Source: Prevotella sp.
Lineage (GTDB): Bacteria; Bacteroidota; Bacteroidia; Bacteroidales; Bacteroidaceae
Length of the DNA: 47,651 nucleotides
Direction: 5' to 3'
NCBI GenBank assembly: GCA_017458125.1
Contig: JAFTGB010000061.1
Coordinates: forward strand, 1-47,651
Shown: positions 16,578-46,561 of the stretch, piece after piece
How positions within the stretch are numbered: position 1 is the stretch's first letter
How the letters are laid out: each line of letters opens with the position of its first letter
Notes under the pieces: model-generated
Seen by the model: only the letters and a program-made list of their open reading frames with translations
Told to the model about the DNA's origin: nothing
Databases searched by the model: none
Translations under genes and position numbers: made by a program

Positions 16578-18278
16578 ATGCAAAAGATTATCATTCTCGA
16601 TTTCGGGTCGCAGACCACACAGCTCATTGGACGGCGTGTGCGCGAACTCGACACCTTCTGCGAGATTATGCCCTACAACAAGTTCCCCAAGGACGACCCC
16701 TCTGTCATCGGTGTCATCCTTTCGGGTTCACCTTATTCCGTCCACGACCCGGAGGCCTTCAAGGTAGACCTCTCGCAGTTTGTGGGACGCGTGCCGGTGT
16801 TGGGCATCTGCTACGGGGCACAGTTCATCAGTCACACCCTTGGCGGTAAGGTGGAGAAGGCTGACTCCCGTGAGTACGGCCGCGCCAACCTGCAGACTGT
16901 AGACACCGCCAACCCCCTGTTCCAGGGTTTCGAGCAGCACTCGCAGGTGTGGATGTCGCACGGCGACACCATCACCGCCATCCCCGACGGCTTTGAAGTC
17001 ATTGGCAGCACAAAGGATGTGAAGAACGCCGCCTTCTGGTGTCCGGCAGAAAAATTGGCAAATTGTCAGTCCGTCAGCGGCAGCCAGATTGTCAATAGTA
17101 AATCGTTAAATAGTAAATCCATTTGGGCTGTCCAGTTCCATCCCGAAGTGTTCCACACCCTGCAGGGCAGTCTGCTCCTGAAGAATTTCGTTGTCGGCAT
17201 CTGTGGTTCGCGTCAGGAGTGGAGTGCCGCCTCGTTTGTCGACAGCACCGTGGCCGAACTGAAACAGGAGTTAGGCGACGATGGCGTTATCCTCGGACTC
17301 TCTGGAGGTGTCGACTCCTCCGTGGCTGCTGTCCTGCTCAACCGTGCCATCGGTGAACGCCTCACCTGCATCTTCGTCGACCACGGCATGTTGCGCAAGA
17401 ACGAGTTCCAGCAGGTGATGCAGGACTATCAGGGACTGGGGCTGAACGTTATCGGCGTCGATGCCTCGGAGAAGTTCTTTGCCGACCTGGCAGGTGTCAC
17501 CGACCCTGAACAGAAGCGTAAGATTATAGGCCGCGACTTCGTTGAAGTGTTCAACGCAGAAGCCCAAAAAATAGTAAATGGTAAATCCGTAAATAGTAAA
17601 TCGCCATGCCGCTGGCTTGCTCAGGGCACCATCTACCCTGACCGTATCGAGTCACTGAACATCACTGGCAAGGTCATCAAGAGTCACCACAACGTGGGAG
17701 GACTGCCCAAGGAGATGAACCTCCAGCTGTGTGAACCCCTCAAATGGCTCTTCAAGGACGAGGTGCGCCGCGTGGGGCGTCAGCTCGGCATGCCTGAGCA
17801 CCTCATCACCCGTCATCCCTTCCCTGGTCCGGGACTGGCCGTACGTATCTTGGGCGACATCACGCCGGAGAAAGTACGTATCCTCCAGGACGCAGACGAC
17901 ATCTACATCCGTGGACTGCGCGACTACAAAGTGAAACTCAGTGGCGAGGAGTCTCGCCGCGTATTGGCTGCCGGTATACCTGCCGCCATGCAAGACGGCG
18001 AAATAGAAGTGTCGCTCTACGACCAGATATGGCAGGCAGGCGCCATCCTGCTCTCCACAGTCCGCTCGGTGGGTGTCATGGGCGATGAGCGCACCTACGA
18101 GCATCCGGTGGCTTTACGTGCTGTCACCTCTACCGACGCCATGACTGCCGACTGGGCCCACCTGCCCTACGACTTCATGGCCAAGGTGTCCAACGAGATT
18201 ATCAACAAGGTGCGCGGTGTCAACCGCGTCTGCTATGACATCTCCTCAAAGCCACCCGCAACGATAGAGTGGGAGTAA
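16578..18278 (+). CDS. guaA: GMP synthetase (glutamine-hydrolysing), with inserts
   Basis: Makes GMP from XMP, ATP and glutamine. The N-terminal glutaminase domain has GICYGAQ with nucleophile C78 and QFHPEV. The ATP-pyrophosphatase loop is SGGVDSS at 242-248, and the C-terminal dimer domain ends with the family's KPPATIEWE. At 566 residues it is longer than most (about 507-525). Three extra segments explain this. One, at about 155-181, ends in NSKSLNSKS; a second, at about 330-343, reads [10 protein letters not shown]; both are encoded by AAATAGT-type heptads in frame. A third, at about 450-476 ([20 protein letters not shown]), has no visible repeat. The essential motifs are all intact, so the enzyme is likely active. 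It follows the murU-like gene by 25 nt. Confidence 0.95.
17091..17120 (+). repeat. In-frame heptad repeat in guaA, site 1
   Basis: AATAGTAAATC occurs at 17094-17104 and again at 17109-17119, 15 nt apart. The stretch AATAGTAAATCGTTAAATAG is nearly the same as the intergenic repeat before mutB (from 43265). It encodes NSKSLNSKS and lies between the glutaminase core and its QFHPE motif. Confidence 0.8.
17569..17603 (+). repeat. In-frame heptad repeat in guaA, site 2
   Basis: Units AAATAGT, AAATGGT, AAATCCGT, AAATAGT, AAATCG in tandem encode [10 protein letters not shown] between EAQK and [10 protein letters not shown], where related enzymes have a short link. Confidence 0.8.
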
Positions 18279-39067: not shown

Positions 39068-40762
39068 TCACCCGCAGAAGAACAGCACCACAATCTGTGC
39101 CGTGAAGATGCGCAGGAACATGCTGAGCGGGTACACCGTAGAGTAACCCACGGCGGGAGCCTCCTTCGAGCATACGCTGTTGGCATAGGCCAGTGCGGGC
39201 GGGTCGGTATATGTACCGGCTATCATACCCATGATGGTGAAGTAGTTGAACTTGTATTTCAGTCGGGCTATGGGACCAACGATGAGGATGGGGATGACCG
39301 TGATGAGGAAACCCGTCAGCACGTAGAGCAGTCCGTCACCGTCCACTACTGTCTCGAAGAAGTTGGAGCCAGCCTTGATGCCCACCGATGCCAAGAACAG
39401 CACCAGACCAATCTCGCGCAGCATCATGTTGGCCGACGTGGTGGTGTAGGTCACCAAGTGCATCTTGTAGCCATAGCGGCCTATCAGAATGGCGATAATC
39501 AGCGGGCCACCGGCAATACCGAGCTTCATGGGTACCGGCATGCCGGGAATGGCAATGGGCAGCGAACCGAAGATGATACCGATGATGATGCCCACGAAAA
39601 TAGTGGCAATGTTAGGAGCATTCAGACGGCGGATGCTGTTACCCATCTTGTTGGCCACACGGTCTACGGCATCCTCCGGGCCGACCACCATCACGCGGTC
39701 GCCGACCTGTAGGGGCAGGGTGGGGGTGGCAAAGATGTCCATACCCTGACGGGTGACTCGGGTCACGTTGACACCATAGACACTGGAGAAGTGCATGGAA
39801 CCTAACGACTTGCCGTTGATGCTGGGGTTGGTGATGAGTATGCGCTTCGACACTAAAGGCTGGTCGCTCTGCTCGAAGTCGATGTCAAGTTTCGGACCGA
39901 TGAAGGCCATGATGGCCTCCTGGTCGGCCTCGGCACAGACTATCAGCATCTGGTCGCCCAGGTGGAAGACGGTGTCGCGGTTGGGGATGCACAGCTCGCC
40001 TTGGTGCACCAGACGCGACACCACGAAGTCTCGGTTCAGGAAGTTGTGTACCTGCAGCAGCGTCTTGCCCTCCAGGTATTTGTTAGTCACCTCTAAGTGC
40101 ATCTTGTACGGTTTCTTGTTCGTGTTGGTCTCGTCAAGAGCCGTCAGTGCTTCCTCCTCCTTGTCCATGCTGATGCTGCATATATACCTTATTAATATAG
40201 TAGCACCGATGATGCCTAACACACCCAACGGGTAGGCGCAGGCGTAGGCTGAGGCTATGTGGGGAGCCTTGCCTATGCCGAAGACGGTGCCCAAAGCCTC
40301 GTTGGCAGCACCAAGTCCGGGGGTGTTCGTCACGGCACCGTACAGCGTACCTACCATCATGGGCAGGTTCGTCACGTTCGACGTGTCGAAGAAGATGAAG
40401 TAGCAGGCAAACATCACCAGGATGTTCAGCACGATGGCTGTGGCAGCAAGGCCGTTCAGCTTGATGCCGGCTTTGCCGAAGCTCTCGAAGAAGCCCGGAC
40501 CAACCTGCATACCGATCATAAACACAAAGAGGATGAGTCCGAAGTCTTGGATAAACGTCAGGATGGGCGTCGGAGCGGTAAACCCGAAGTGTCCGGCCAC
40601 GATGCCGGCAAACAGGACGAAAGTTACACCTAACGAGATGCCGCCAATCTTGATTTTACCCATGTAGACACCAGCGGCAATGACGATGGCATACAGCAAT
40701 GCTATATGAGCCACCGAGTCCGTCGCGGTGAATAAGTCTTTTAGCCATTGAAAGGATTCCAT
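39068..40762 (-). CDS. YidE/AspT-family transporter
   Basis: A 564-residue protein from the ATG at 40762 ([13 protein letters not shown]), chosen because a TAACTTTG box lies just before it; the more upstream in-frame ATG at 40840 precedes that box. Two membrane halves each have five or six helices ([37 protein letters not shown]). Between are two RCK_C/TrkA-C-type domains ([40 protein letters not shown]). AspT exchanges aspartate for alanine; YidE-like proteins have unknown substrates. The decarboxylase genes follow on the same strand, so a dicarboxylate or carboxylate substrate is possible. That link is inferred. Confidence 0.88.
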
Positions 40763-40786
40763 AAATACTATCGCATAATTTGGCTG

Positions 40787-40815
40787 CAAAGTTACAAAAT
40801 AATTGCGCAATCCAA
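40787..40815 (-). promoter_or_regulatory. Promoter of the transporter-decarboxylase run
   Basis: On the minus strand TTG (40815-40813), 18 bp, TAACTTTG (40794-40787), 24 nt before the start codon. Confidence 0.65.
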
Positions 40816-40864
40816 TAACTTTTGTGCAATTATTTTTCATAATAACGTAATAATTATTAAAAAC

Positions 40865-40895
40865 TTCGATAGTTCGGATTTATTTATTACCTTTG
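40865..40895 (+). promoter_or_regulatory. Promoter of mutA-mutB
   Basis: TTCG (near TTTG) at 40865-40868, 19 bp, TACCTTTG at 40888-40895. The leader of about 36 nt is too short for a cobalamin riboswitch. Confidence 0.7.
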
Positions 40896-40937
40896 TAAGC
40901 TAAAACTGAGAAACTTATATTATAATCATTAAATCGT

Positions 40938-42809
40938 ATGGCAAACAAAGAAAAACTCTTCACCGAGTTTCAAGCGCCAACCACACAGGAGTGGTTGGAC
41001 AAGATTGAAGTGGACCTGAAAGGGGCCGACTTCCAGAAACGACTCGTCTGGAGAACCAACGAGGGCTTCAACGTGCAGCCCTTCTATCGCCGGGAAGACC
41101 TGGCCAGTCTCAAGACGCCCGACTCCCTGCCGGGCGAGTTCCCCTTTGTACGTGGCAACAAGAAGGACTCCAACCAGTGGTATGTCCGTCAGAACATTGC
41201 CCTGAATGCTTCGGAGGATGCTCAGTCTGCCGCCAAGGAAGCCAACGCCAAGGCACTCGACATTCTGAACAAGGGTGTCGACTCGCTGGGTTTCCGTATC
41301 CCAAAGAGCATGGTGACGGCAGAGGTCATCGACACGCTGTTGGAGGGTATCTACTGCGAGATCGTCGACCTCAACTTCCGTACCTGTCCCTGTCACGCCC
41401 TCTTGCTGGCCGAACTCATCGACGCCTATTTCACGTGCAAGGGCTTCGACAAGCAGAAACTCTCGTTCACTGTGGGCTTTGACCCTATCGAAAACATGCT
41501 GCTCAAAGGCAAGGACATGACGGCACGCCTGGCCGACGGTCCCCAGATAGTGCAGCTGCTCAAGGACTATCCCAAGGCTCACGTGATGACCGTCCACACC
41601 GAGACGCTTAACAATGCCGGTGCCTACATCGTGCAGGAGTTGGGTTACGCCCTCAGCTGGGGCAACGAGTACCTGCAGCAGCTGGTCGATGCCGGCATCG
41701 ATGCTGACCTCGCCGCCCGTCAGATGAAGTTCTATATGGGTGTCTCTGAGAACTACTTCATGGAGATTGCCAAGTTCCGTGCCGCTCGTCTGCTGTGGGC
41801 CCAAATCGTCAAGCAGTATGAGCCCAAGTGCGATTGTGCATGCAAGATGTGCGTCAACGCCACTACATCTACCTACAACCAGACGGTGTTCGACTCCTAT
41901 GTCAACCTGTTGCGCTCACAGACCGAGGCTATGTCGGCAGCTCTTGGCGGCGTACACTCCATGGTGGTCACACCGTTCGACGCTCCTTACGAGAAAGCGA
42001 CTGACTTCTCAGAGCGCATCGCCCGCAACCAGCAGTTGCTCATCAAGGAGGAGAGCCACTTCGACCGCATTGTTGACCCCTCGGCAGGCTCCTACTACAT
42101 TGAGCACCTCACCGATGCCCTGGCTCAGGAGGCTTGGAAACTCTTCCTCAAGATGGAGGACGAAGGTGGCTTCTTAGAGGCTGTCAAGAAAGGCATCGTA
42201 CAGGACGACATCAATGCCACCAACCAGAAGCGTCATGGCGATGCCGCCAAGCGCAAGGAGTTCATCCTTGGCACCAACCAGTTCCCGAACTTTACGGAAA
42301 AGAGCGATGGCAAGCGTGCCGTAGCAGGTAAGTGCTGCTGTCATGGCGGCGACTGCGAGGCACCCTTCAAGAAGCTGGAGACCACCCGTCTGGCTGCCGA
42401 CTTCGAGGACCTGCGCATCCATACTGAGGAGACGCGCGTGCCCACAGCATTCATGCTGACCATCGGCAACCTGGCCATGCGTCAGGCTCGTGCACAGTTC
42501 TCGTGCAACTTCCTGGCCTGTGCAGGCTACAAGGTCATCGACAACCTCGGCTTCAAGACCGTCGAAGAAGGTGTCGACGCTGCCCTTGAGGCCAAGGCTG
42601 ACATCGTGGTCATCTGCTCTTCCGACGACGAATATGCCGAGTACGCCATACCGGCTTTCAACTACCTGAACGGTCGCGCCATGTTTGTCGTCGCCGGTGC
42701 TCCCGCCTGCATGGACGACCTCAAAGCCGCCGGCATCGAGAACTTCATCCACGTCCGCTGCAACGTTCTGGAAACCCTCAAAGAGTATAATGCTAAGTTA
42801 GGTATTTAA
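40938..42809 (+). CDS. mutA: Methylmalonyl-CoA mutase small (beta) subunit
   Basis: A 623-residue protein paired with the large subunit MutB; together they interconvert succinyl-CoA and methylmalonyl-CoA. The TIM-barrel part is clear (TQEWLDKIEVDLKGADFQKR, QMKFYMGVSENYFMEIAKFR, VDPSAGSYYIEHLTDALAQE). The C-terminal B12-type domain lacks the His ligand motif (VVICSSDDEYAEYAIPAF), as normal for the small subunit. Two Cys clusters are unusual: C298-x-C300-x-C302-xx-C305, and C466-C467-C468-H469 with C473 in the linker before the C-terminal domain. They could bind a metal or cluster. The gene is separated from mutB by the inserted four-helix-bundle element. Confidence 0.95.
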   Translation: MANKEKLFTEFQAPTTQEWLDKIEVDLKGADFQKRLVWRTNEGFNVQPFYRREDLASLKTPDSLPGEFPFVRGNKKDSNQWYVRQNIALNASEDAQSAAKEANAKALDILNKGVDSLGFRIPKSMVTAEVIDTLLEGIYCEIVDLNFRTCPCHALLLAELIDAYFTCKGFDKQKLSFTVGFDPIENMLLKGKDMTARLADGPQIVQLLKDYPKAHVMTVHTETLNNAGAYIVQELGYALSWGNEYLQQLVDAGIDADLAARQMKFYMGVSENYFMEIAKFRAARLLWAQIVKQYEPKCDCACKMCVNATTSTYNQTVFDSYVNLLRSQTEAMSAALGGVHSMVVTPFDAPYEKATDFSERIARNQQLLIKEESHFDRIVDPSAGSYYIEHLTDALAQEAWKLFLKMEDEGGFLEAVKKGIVQDDINATNQKRHGDAAKRKEFILGTNQFPNFTEKSDGKRAVAGKCCCHGGDCEAPFKKLETTRLAADFEDLRIHTEETRVPTAFMLTIGNLAMRQARAQFSCNFLACAGYKVIDNLGFKTVEEGVDAALEAKADIVVICSSDDEYAEYAIPAFNYLNGRAMFVVAGAPACMDDLKAAGIENFIHVRCNVLETLKEYNAKLGI

Positions 42810-43290
42810 TTTACGATTTTACTATTTACTATTTACGATTTATTTTCGATTTGGCTATTTAATTATTTATGACCAAGGAAGAATTGCGTGAGAGGATGAC
42901 TGTTTTTGCAGTTAGAATCGTGAAAATGGTTGATGCGATGCCTCAGACGGTATCGGGATTGGCTATCGCGCGACAGATAGTCCGCTCTGGTACTTCTCCT
43001 TCTGCCAACTATCGTGCAGCATGTCTGGCAAAATCCGACAAAGATTTTATCAACAAGTTAAAAATGGTAGAAGAAGAACTTGACGAAACTTGTCACTGGC
43101 TTGAGATTATCATGCGCAGTGAGATGGTAAAAGAGTCACGCATGAAACCCCTCCATCAAGAATGCTGTGAGTTACTGAATATCATTGCTAAATCGATAGT
43201 CACAACAAAGACAAGATTGACTTCGGATGAAATAGCTAAATCAAAAAAATCGTAAATAAATAGTAAATAGTAAATCGTCAAATAGTAAAT
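42806..43290 (+). mobile_element. IVS-like element: heptad inverted repeats around a four-helix-bundle gene
   Basis: The left arm 42806-42859 and right arm 43231-43290 are near reverse complements over about 50 nt: the complement of the left reads AATAGCCAAATCGAAAATAA and the right reads AATAGCTAAATCAAAAAAAT, both then going through AATCGTAAAT and AGTAAATAGTAAA. Each arm is built of 7-nt units (AAATCGT, AAATAGT). The outer left end covers the mutA stop; the right arm covers the last codons of the enclosed gene and ends 7 nt before mutB. The RNA would fold as a long stem with the gene in the loop, as in 23S rRNA intervening sequences. Confidence 0.75.
42869..43255 (+). CDS. Four-helix-bundle protein (S23/IVP-like)
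   Basis: A 128-residue protein of the 'four helix bundle protein' group (TIGR02436-like), related to the S23 proteins of 23S rRNA intervening sequences. The hallmark turn is SGLAIARQIVRSGTSPSANY followed by RAACLAKSDKDFINKL; the third and fourth helices are KMVEEELDETCHWLEIIM and ECCELLNIIAKSIVTTKTRL. It has no enzyme motif; relatives form pentamers and the bAvd member binds RNA and DNA in diversity-generating retroelements. It sits between mutA and mutB, and its final codons (IAKSKKS) are part of the right repeat arm. No role in propionate metabolism is expected. Confidence 0.88.
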   Translation: MTKEELRERMTVFAVRIVKMVDAMPQTVSGLAIARQIVRSGTSPSANYRAACLAKSDKDFINKLKMVEEELDETCHWLEIIMRSEMVKESRMKPLHQECCELLNIIAKSIVTTKTRLTSDEIAKSKKS

Positions 43291-43297
43291 AAAGAAG

Positions 43298-45463
<2,166 letters not shown>

Positions 45464-46561
45464 ATGGGCGACATTAAGCGTATCGTACTGACAGGCGGAC
45501 CATGTGCAGGCAAGACGACTGCACTGGTCCGCATTGTCGACCATTTCTCCAACCTCGGCTTCAAGGTGTTCACCGTCCCCGAAGTGCCGACAATGTTCAG
45601 TCTTGGCGGCTGGAGCTATCTCACCAAGAACCCGAAGCTCTACTACGAGGGCGAGCTGGCCATCCTGCAGACGCAGCTGGCCTTGGAGGATGCTTTTATG
45701 CGTATGGCAGCCACCTGCACCAAGCCCGCAATCGTTGTCTGCGACCGTGGCACCATGGACATTTCGGCATACATCTCACCCGACATGTGGGACGACATCT
45801 GCCACCGCTGTCACACTGCCACCAACCAGCTGCGGCAGCGCTACGATGCCGTGCTCCACTTGGTGACCGCTGCCGACGGCGCCGAACAGTTCTATACCGT
45901 TGACACCAATGCCGCACGCTACGAGCAGGCCAACGAGGAGGGACTGCGCATGGCCTGCGAGCTGGACCAGAAGGTGCGGCGGGCCTGGACCGGCCATCCC
46001 CACCAGCGCGTCATCGACAATCACGACGACTTCGAGACTAAGCTCAACCACGTCATCACCGAAATCAGCAACGTCCTCGGACTGCCGCACTTGCTCACCC
46101 GCGAGCGCGTCTACATCGTGGAAGTCACTGGAGAACTGCCCGACTGCATCGAAAGCGAAATCACACAGACCTACCTCGTTGCCGAGCCCGACTGTGTGGT
46201 ACGTCTGCGCCGGCGCAGCTGGCAGGGCGAGGTGGCCAACATCCACAAGACGCAGAAGCACGTCACACCCACCGAGGTCATCGAGACCGAGCGTCACGTC
46301 TCCAACGCCCTCTATGAGTCGCTGCTACAGCAGGCCGACCCCTACCGCTCCACCATACGCAAGACGCGGCGCAGCTTCATCTGGCACGGGCAGTATTTCG
46401 AGCTCGACACCTTCCACGAGCCTGTCAGCGACCTCATGATCCTGCAGGCCAAGGGCATTGCCGAACAGGAGGAGGTCAACTTCCCGCCCTTCGTCCGCGT
46501 CGTGCAGGACATCACCGGCGACCAGCGTTACTTCAACTACAACATTGCACTGCGCAAATAA
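45464..46561 (+). CDS. Ttd14-like protein: P-loop NTPase plus CYTH-like domain
   Basis: A 365-residue protein whose ATG follows the mutB stop directly. The N-terminal NTPase (AAA_28/NadR-like) has Walker A GGPCAGKTT at 11-19 and a possible Walker B in AIVVCDRGTMD. The C-terminal 150 residues look like a CYTH/triphosphate-tunnel domain (ESEITQTYLV, CVVRLRRRSWQGE, EVIETERHVSNALYESLLQQ, HGQYFELDTFHE). This pair of domains occurs in the eukaryotic protein Ttd14 and in some bacteria. The tight link to mutB suggests, but does not show, a role with the mutase, for which MeaB-type G3E GTPases are the known helpers. Followed by a terminator. Confidence 0.8.
   Translation: MGDIKRIVLTGGPCAGKTTALVRIVDHFSNLGFKVFTVPEVPTMFSLGGWSYLTKNPKLYYEGELAILQTQLALEDAFMRMAATCTKPAIVVCDRGTMDISAYISPDMWDDICHRCHTATNQLRQRYDAVLHLVTAADGAEQFYTVDTNAARYEQANEEGLRMACELDQKVRRAWTGHPHQRVIDNHDDFETKLNHVITEISNVLGLPHLLTRERVYIVEVTGELPDCIESEITQTYLVAEPDCVVRLRRRSWQGEVANIHKTQKHVTPTEVIETERHVSNALYESLLQQADPYRSTIRKTRRSFIWHGQYFELDTFHEPVSDLMILQAKGIAEQEEVNFPPFVRVVQDITGDQRYFNYNIALRK

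Follow-up and report, generated by a model that had tools for sequence, protein, structure and literature searches.

Why does a small gene of the S23 type, enclosed by inverted arms, stand between the two genes for methylmalonyl-CoA mutase? The question is raised by a contig of Prevotella sp. (JAFTGB010000061.1), of which a stretch of 47,651 nt, here called the window, was analysed. The features under discussion are compiled in Table 1.

Table 1. The S23 element, its host genes and related unit arrays in the window
Feature	Position	Strand	Remark
mutA, methylmalonyl-CoA mutase small subunit, upstream host gene	40938-42809	+	TIGR00642
Left end, outer end first	42806-42864	+	inverted-repeat part 42806-42852
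S23/TIGR02436 four-helix-bundle ORF, 128 aa	42869-43255	+	PF05635 and TIGR02436 profile matches
Right end, inverted copy of the left end	43226-43293	-	inverted-repeat part 43247-43293
mutB, methylmalonyl-CoA mutase large subunit, downstream host gene	43298-45463	+	NF006944
Unit array in frame inside guaA (16578-18278)	17091-17118	+	same units as the ends of the mutA-mutB element
Second unit array in frame inside guaA	17574-17601	+	same units as the ends of the mutA-mutB element

The gene and its inverted arms had been recognised in an initial annotation, and both are confirmed. The ORF scores 55.7 bits against PF05635 (23S_rRNA_IVP; cut-off 33.8) and 81.4 bits against TIGR02436 (cut-off 24), and has a solved relative in 2rld (E 8.9e-17, 5 chains). 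The Pfam search yielded PF05635 only, i.e., neither a catalytic domain nor a Y1/HuH tyrosine transposase. The arms, each of 47 nt, are 87% complementary and separated by 394 nt. The right one had been thought to end at 43290; it extends to about 43293. Nor are the ends made of plain AAATCGT/AAATAGT heptads, as had been assumed. They are composite: the units of the left arm are spaced 7-8-7-7-11-8-8, the first five spacings being common to the right arm, and the inner part of the left end, CGATTTGGCTATTTAATTATTT, is similar to the inner part of S23-less miniature copies. A repeat search with a threshold of 12 nt listed no inverted repeat within a single arm. The element fits tightly into its place. 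The stop codon of mutA lies directly at the left end, mutB starts 4 nt beyond the right end, and the S23 ORF runs into the right arm with its final codons and its stop. A chance origin of the arms is ruled out by their complementarity, by nine sites of GTAAATMGTAAAT (up to one mismatch) in the window against a mean of 0.06 in 100 shuffles, and by the RNA fold of 42806-43293, which reaches -137.4 kcal/mol compared with -103.3 (sd 6.4) in 100 shuffles (z -5.3). The surroundings (40000-46000) had no match in Rfam at gathering scores, and phage records searched with 42700-43400 gave none either.

The spacers without an insert that the initial annotation had proposed to look for in Prevotella do exist. 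Between mutA and mutB there are 488 nt in the genome of the window (G000) versus 2-20 nt in 13 relatives of the same genus (three further ones could not be parsed), and G000 alone among the genomes compared has the insertion. The empty sites all come from other species, and their spacers are too diverged to establish a target-site duplication. Judged against them, the S23 unit is an insertion, and the idea of an S23 gene as a fixed member of this operon is ruled out. Nor is it a solitary copy, which would have spoken against the initial annotation: further S23 genes are present in G000, where matches total 13, and the arms recur there too. The further expectation that other S23 genes carry the same arms was not borne out; each locus has a unit of its own, which excludes a single arm sequence for all S23 genes. 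Inverted ends around an inserted S23 gene, together with copies throughout the genome, look like an unfamiliar mobile-element system. With a probability of about 0.6, the insert is a full-length copy of a mobile-element-like unit, in which the ends are moving or recognised and S23 may act in trans.

The ends are indeed dispersed. In G000, GTAAATNGTAAAT occurs at 108 sites, the reversed pattern at one, and the composite end has 73 BLAST matches at 40 places. Five inverted neighbours are found among the 100 sites listed, all oriented as in the S23 element; one holds S23 and four are S23-less miniature doublets. By exact pattern, solo ends account for 65 of the 75 clusters among the sites listed. 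Two arrays even reside in the coding sequence of guaA. The peptide around the first is missing in 18 of the 19 relatives aligned, the remaining one having a different insert, and the second array is missing in all 19. Dispersed ends and doublets exist in two genomes from two phyla, the other being the acidobacterial G421. There, one S23 arm is matched 62 times. The matches make up 20 inverted pairs, each in left-then-right order, and 19 solo clusters; 19 of the pairs have loops too short for S23, and one pair surrounds S23. Of six miniatures examined in the genus, two occupy spacers in which other genomes have full S23 elements: the etfB/etfA spacer (miniature L374, full elements L112 and L127) and the serA site (miniature L423, full elements L122 and L161). 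GTAAATMGTAAAT is found in 50 of 100 genomes of the genus and is abundant in few. Genome G109 (68% complete) has 35 array sites and no TIGR02436 match, which implies that ends can be retained or spread even where no S23 gene is detected.

All this is reminiscent of REP/RAYT (REPtron) systems. A RAYT gene is flanked by two inverted short repeats, the repeats are dispersed solo and as doublets, and the RAYT protein and its repeat ends vary together (PMC2817692, PMC3116915). G000 and G421 share with them a gene between inverted repeats of which further copies are scattered over the genome, and likewise REPIN-like doublets with short loops (at least four without S23 in G000, 19 in G421). There are differences too. 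RAYT is a tyrosine transposase, whereas S23 is a four-helix bundle (PF05635); S23 ends appear as tandem arrays of units of mostly 7-12 nt rather than as one palindrome, the form of REP; and S23 genes are co-directional in operon spacers.

Could S23 be a mere passenger, caught by happenstance between two heptad arrays that an unrelated process makes? Heptamer repeats have been described in Xanthomonas and Nostoc (GGGAATC, GGGGA(C/T)T), mostly intergenic and preferably between aligned ORFs (PMC4692102), and as TAACTGA in Beggiatoaceae and cyanobacteria (PMC4679880, PMC4692102). Neither S23 nor four-helix genes come up in the main texts of these two papers; further, solo arrays outnumber the elements, and G109 has arrays with no S23 match. 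The arrays at S23 genes, however, are matched locus by locus. In the genus, in Bacteroidota at large and in eight other phyla, many S23 genes stand between inverted arrays whose short tandem units are mostly 7-8 nt long; the unit sequences vary between loci, yet left and right of one locus match. For 107 S23 genes of the genus, the median left-right score is 27, compared with 10.5 in cross-locus pairs. A score of at least 20 is reached by 88 of them, but by 0 of 60 control ORFs (left after removal of duplicates from overlapping loci) and by 3 of 141 drawn from the S23 loci themselves. Both sides are periodic in 84 of the 107, with equal period in 73 (permutations: mean 26.8, maximum 42). Left-right matching is locus-specific, and the array period tracks the phylogeny of S23: it changes 12 times on the S23 tree versus at least 24 times in 200 shuffles. 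The picture is not perfect. Only 51 of the 107 elements exceed the 99th percentile of cross-locus pairs, a few S23 genes are devoid of matching ends (e.g., L097, L110, L011, L013), left-right similarity surpasses that to the closest relative at the same site in only 23 of 49 elements (equal segments), and the in-register gain of the arms is 0.145 within elements versus 0.138 between elements with similar units. Nevertheless, the locus-wise matching, which is seen at GxxExxY genes too (see below), the agreement of the period with the S23 tree and the recurrence in several phyla make the passenger hypothesis very improbable.

This recurrence is documented by three samples. S23 genes were found in 87 of 100 genomes of the genus and in 223 of 296 across the phylum. 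In a phylum sample of 50 loci, the left-right score is 16.25 versus 11 (p 2e-22), with only 25 loci above the 95th percentile and a period equal on the two sides in only 6 of 10 testable. A named set of 77 loci yielded 18.5 versus 10.5; the 95th percentile was exceeded by 30 of the 60 Bacteroidota loci and by 13 of the 17 others. Values of 25.5 versus 10 came from 29 elements of 14 non-Bacteroidota genomes, 14 of these elements being also in the named set; 25 of the 29 lie above the 95th percentile, and left and right period agree in 23 of 23 testable. The combination of S23 with inverted arrays thus recurs in several bacterial phyla.

S23 genes are co-oriented with their host genes, antisense insertions being nearly absent (151 '+S+' vs 2 '-S-'). 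A DNA transposon would not normally behave in this way, and an RNA-level life cycle would fit as well. Avd is the accessory protein of diversity-generating retroelements, and S23, as a presumed relative, might serve a reverse transcriptase in trans; element and miniatures would then be copied via RNA, which would explain the sense orientation in operons. The S23 protein of locus L001 reaches 30.6 bits against PF22296 (bAvd), below the cut-off of 40, but that of the window gave no bAvd match in the Pfam search, and dependence on a host promoter could also produce co-orientation. A retro-element is unlikely.

The initial annotation had favoured an RNA-based explanation of another kind, an intervening sequence. 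In Coxiella, the IVS of 23S rRNA comprises 428-444 nt with an S23p ORF and complementary ends and is cut by RNase III; S23 genes are stated there to have no known function (PMC4990558). The element of the window encodes a protein of the same family, is of similar size and has complementary ends forming a stem around the S23 ORF, so the structural part of that proposal holds. The element lies, however, between protein genes, outside rRNA, and therefore is not an rRNA IVS, and its ends are arrays of tandem units dispersed in the genome. An IVS-like element in mRNA would have its stem cut by RNase III, with removal of the S23 message; the host would tolerate it since both neighbouring genes are left whole, and pairing should be selected. 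As the initial annotation pointed out, such a cut would also split the mutA and mutB messages. The shared plan, the strong fold and the co-orientation with the host operon speak for it. Sense-strand mismatches of the arms, however, comprise 151 G.U and 188 A.C (per element, 34 vs 33). With G.U not in excess, selection for sense-strand RNA pairing was not detected, and the postulated action at the RNA level is unsupported. The hypothesis would also leave unexplained the arrays in guaA and the dozens of solo ends and doublets that lie apart from S23 elements. We consider this possibility unlikely, if somewhat less so than a retro-element.

How might the preferred mobile-end system work? A full unit consists of an S23 gene between two inverted ends, each of roughly 35-55 nt of short tandem units, the ends presumably being the recognised or moving part. 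Full elements (end-S23-end), doublets (end-short loop-end) and solo ends coexist in one genome like RAYT, REPIN and REP. An oligomeric S23 protein may bind the repeats that make up its cognate ends; a unit length that tracks S23 phylogeny would be accounted for if each unit took up one subunit. S23 would help to copy or insert ends in trans, while the chemistry would probably fall to the host or to another enzyme. Presumably dependent on the host promoter, the gene would be kept where the host operon reads through without disruption: immediately after a stop, immediately before a start and in the same direction.

A broader generalisation is tempting, although we rate it somewhat below even odds. 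S23 proteins could be the cognate factors of widespread, transposase-free, REP/RAYT-like elements with short tandem arrays as ends, which produce the heptamer repeats of bacterial genomes and spread them; the rRNA IVS would be a branch that came to rest in rRNA, and GxxExxY nucleases would head a sister class whose units are mostly of 9 nt. If true, S23 genes, as the coding half of a mobile-end system, gain a testable role, the intergenic heptamer arrays of the two 2015 papers find a source, and rRNA intervening sequences are tied to a general class of elements. The element is small and, as the named loci attest, present in culturable bacteria, which makes binding and movement directly testable. 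Among the open-licence papers listed by our searches, none connects heptad arms with genes of the S23 or GxxExxY type; an earlier description may exist elsewhere.

The heptamers of Xanthomonas and Nostoc resemble S23 ends in being 7-nt tandem units and mostly intergenic; for Xanthomonas, many convergent inverted pairs, 70 and 75, are reported (PMC4692102). A tripled GGGAATC unit did not occur in a sample of 274 genomes from the class to which genome G419 belongs. The GxxExxY genes (TIGR04256; PF13366, PDDEXK_3) of the same genus share with S23 the arrangement of a small single gene between inverted tandem arrays, whose period is equal on both sides in 12 of 12 testable. They differ in belonging to a predicted nuclease family, in unit sequence and in unit length, which is 9 in 11 of the 12 and 10 in one.

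In the window, the S23 gene (see table) separates mutA from mutB, the genes for the two methylmalonyl-CoA mutase subunits. Among solved structures its product resembles 2rld (five chains, E 8.9e-17). It is bracketed by inverted arms of 47 nt each, 87% complementary, and with the PF05635 and TIGR02436 matches these bear out the initial annotation, which had placed an S23-type gene between inverted arms here. The left end starts at the stop codon of mutA; the right end takes in the final codons of the S23 ORF and stops 4 nt upstream of the mutB start. As RNA, the complete 488-nt element folds 5.3 sd better than shuffles (n=100).

The element is an insertion. A search of 60 relatives for the mutA-mutB site yielded 30 loci, of which 17 (L044-L060, own genome included) form the same-genus set. 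The spacer, measurable in 14 of the 17, is 488 nt long in the window's own genome (G000) and 2-20 nt in the 13 others. These figures leave out L046, L047 and L060, which could not be parsed; the printed sequence of L046 and L047 is without insert between the two genes. Spacers with and without the insert, as supposed for an element inserted in this operon, were thus both found.

Features and their places
Feature	Place	Strand	Remarks
S23 ORF	window 42869-43255	+	128 codons; PF05635 and TIGR02436 matches above cut-offs
guaA	window 16578-18278		two in-frame array inserts within 17060-17610
Miniature L374	etfB/etfA spacer		full S23 elements at same spacer: L112, L127
Miniature L423	serA site		full S23 elements at same site: L122, L161
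L003, L007	G000 C77:43886-48847		prfB-like gene with an S23 gene on either side
L135	G118 C4:44070-51610		row of three closely related S23 genes
L377	G000 C62:35200-36500		dispersed unit within ~94-nt direct tandem repeat, at least 3 copies

TIGR02436 matches number 13 in G000; at least one occurs in 87 of 100 same-genus genomes (maximum 15 per genome) and, phylum-wide, in 223 of 296. The genus set comprised 103 loci: 13 own, 30 returned by the genus search and 60 regions fetched down the E-value ranking, which makes the sample poor in weak matches. Once duplicates and ORFs no more than 60 nt from an end were removed, it gave 107 S23 ORFs. The 250-nt flank upstream of each ORF was compared by alignment with the reverse-complemented 250-nt flank downstream. 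Left-right scores had a median of 27, against 10.5 for flank pairs from different loci; 51 of the 107 ORFs exceeded the cross-locus 99th percentile, and in 56 the own partner scored best of all flanks. A score of at least 20 was reached by 88 of 107 S23 genes, by none of 60 control ORFs from G000 and by just 3 of 141 ORFs other than S23 in these S23 loci. A tandem period (score at least 9) was present on both flanks of 84 ORFs, the same left and right in 73 of them (permutations: mean 26.8, never above 42); distant flanks reached that score in 14 of 103 cases. Among the 88 elements scoring at least 20 the best period was 7 (36), 8 (30), 9 (10), 10 (9), 11 (2) or 12 (1). Other S23 genes with the same arms had also been envisaged; this did not hold, the unit sequence differing from locus to locus, even inside one genome.

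Some loci of the genus are unusual. Of the S23 genes beside the prfB-like gene, L007 has matched 7-nt arms and L003 scores a mere 12.5. The S23 row of L135 is bounded by long arrays with many small palindromes of the GTTCAAAGGCGGCAAAGCCGC type. In the S23 clade whose units are of the GGAGTTA type (L095, L099, L106 and L109 among others) a GACAAATG- or GACATTAC-like motif seems to recur at the inner array end on both sides of the gene.

Matched ends extend beyond the genus. In the phylum set (50 loci, top-ranked plus hand-spread matches of the phylum search) the median score was 16.25 vs 11.0 (p 1.8e-22); 25 loci lay above the 95th and 12 above the 99th percentile, and left and right periods were equal in only 6 of 10 testable loci. 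The named set, 77 loci analysed from the 80 top-ranking among 566 relatives of one protein, scored 18.5 vs 10.5. Above its 95th percentile were 30/60 loci from Bacteroidota and 13/17 from other phyla: Planctomycetota 3/4, Acidobacteriota 2/3, Bacillota 2/2, and 1/1 each for Hydrogenedentota, Chloroflexota, Thermodesulfobacteriota, Nitrospirota, Pseudomonadota and an unplaced bacterium; Omnitrophota and Cloacimonadota each gave 0/1. Fourteen of these 17 loci were followed into their genomes, where 30 loci gave 29 elements (14 already in the named set), of median score 25.5 vs 10.0; 25 of the 29 exceeded the 95th percentile, and periods agreed in 23 of 23 testable cases.

The ends co-vary with the S23 protein. 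In a tree of 104 proteins, built from few columns and with many weak forks, the period changed 12 times among 71 elements (24-36 in 200 shuffles) and 11 times with one element per site (n=47; 14-19 in shuffles). The window protein groups with that of another G000 locus, L010, where the ends carry the window element's unit in an 8-nt variant. Pairs at different sites are alike in unit sequence mainly above 50% protein identity (Spearman 0.31). Recurrent sites were labelled sdhAB, recA, ackA, etfA, etfB, serA and prfB by reading the neighbouring peptides. Same-site pairs of 50-60% protein identity scored 21.2 left-right inside one element against 8.8 across genomes (the former larger in 48 of 51); the values were 26.1 and 19.9 at 60-70%, and 30.8 and 32.1 at 70% or more. 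Hence the ends turn over with left and right kept alike, unless one element has taken another's place at a site; element by element, left and right resemble each other more than they do the closest same-site relative in only 23 of 49. Among 18 sequences compared, certain Q, R, S, N and E positions never vary; they may form an end-binding or active surface.

Ends also occur without the gene. G000 holds 108 GTAAATNGTAAAT sites and 1 of the reversed pattern. The 100 sites listed form 75 clusters and include five neighbouring inverted pairs, all oriented like the ends of the S23 element and none the other way. One is the window element; the four others (L374, L375, L376, L037) are miniatures with 76-100 nt between matched sites, too short for S23. 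Since both window-element ends, miniature ends and solo copies align to one layout, ATTTACG-ATTTNACG-ATTTACG-ATTTACT, the dispersed end is a defined repeat, not free slippage; many copies run on into ATTTATTTACG. BLAST with one miniature gave at least 73 matches at 40 or more places in G000, from the 40 of 107 first-look candidates that were scored. Six of 22 arrays viewed in context fall inside open frames of 172 codons or more, that of L023 being probably spurious. All 19 relatives aligned lack the second guaA insert and 18 of them the first, L325 having a different serine-rich insert there. Two of six genus miniatures viewed (the four of G000 and L422, L423 in G080) sit in spacers that hold full S23 elements in other genomes. 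G032 is rich even in the reversed control pattern (42 + 71), which there represents another heptad family.

The same three forms recur in the acidobacterial genome G421. Matches to the left end of one S23 element there, L351, number 62 and fall into 59 clusters, with 20 inverted pairs, every one left-then-right (19 without room for S23 in the loop, one enclosing the S23 gene), and 19 solo clusters. Four miniatures read have arms of the L351 unit family; two of them, L424 and L426, share its variant second unit.

A gene between ends, doublets, solo ends and protein-linked ends are what RAYT/REPIN/REP systems show; PMC2817692 and PMC3116915 describe the three forms and ends varying with the protein. 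By this analogy we read the S23 elements as RAYT/REPIN/REP-like and infer mobility, with a four-helix-bundle protein where RAYT systems have a transposase. Several points count against this: no catalytic domain was found in the S23 protein, no target-site duplication was established, G109 (68% complete) has ends with no S23 gene detected, solo ends are many, and a few S23 genes lack matched ends.

The S23 gene is nearly always co-directional with its host genes. By a margin rule on flanking frames, in loci with long enough flanks, both neighbours run with it in 61/101 genus, 40/49 phylum and 50/71 named loci and both against it in 0, 1 and 1, the remainder being mixed or undecided; a cruder rule gave 87, 9 and 5 of 101, none fully antisense. 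The elements might instead act in RNA, as rRNA intervening sequences do, and be cut by RNase III, as first supposed. This reading keeps some weight because those sequences have the same protein and overall plan, and RNase III cutting was demonstrated for that of Coxiella, as a passage in PMC4990558 has it. A stem working in the transcript, however, should show more G.U than A.C mismatches, and the arms of 88 elements hold 151 and 188 (per element 34 vs 33), without a G.U excess. These counts speak against strong selection on RNA pairing and leave room for RNA roles.

A sister class of the S23 elements is formed by GxxExxY genes (TIGR04256), which 64 of 100 genus genomes carry and G000 lacks; two proteins tested match PF13366 PDDEXK_3. 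In 27 readable loci of 30 sampled from genus genomes (L294-L323) the median left-right score was 25 vs 11, and 19 exceeded the 95th percentile. The architecture is like that of S23 elements, but the units are mostly of 9 nt: periods were equal left and right in 12 of 12 testable loci, 9 in eleven and 10 in one.
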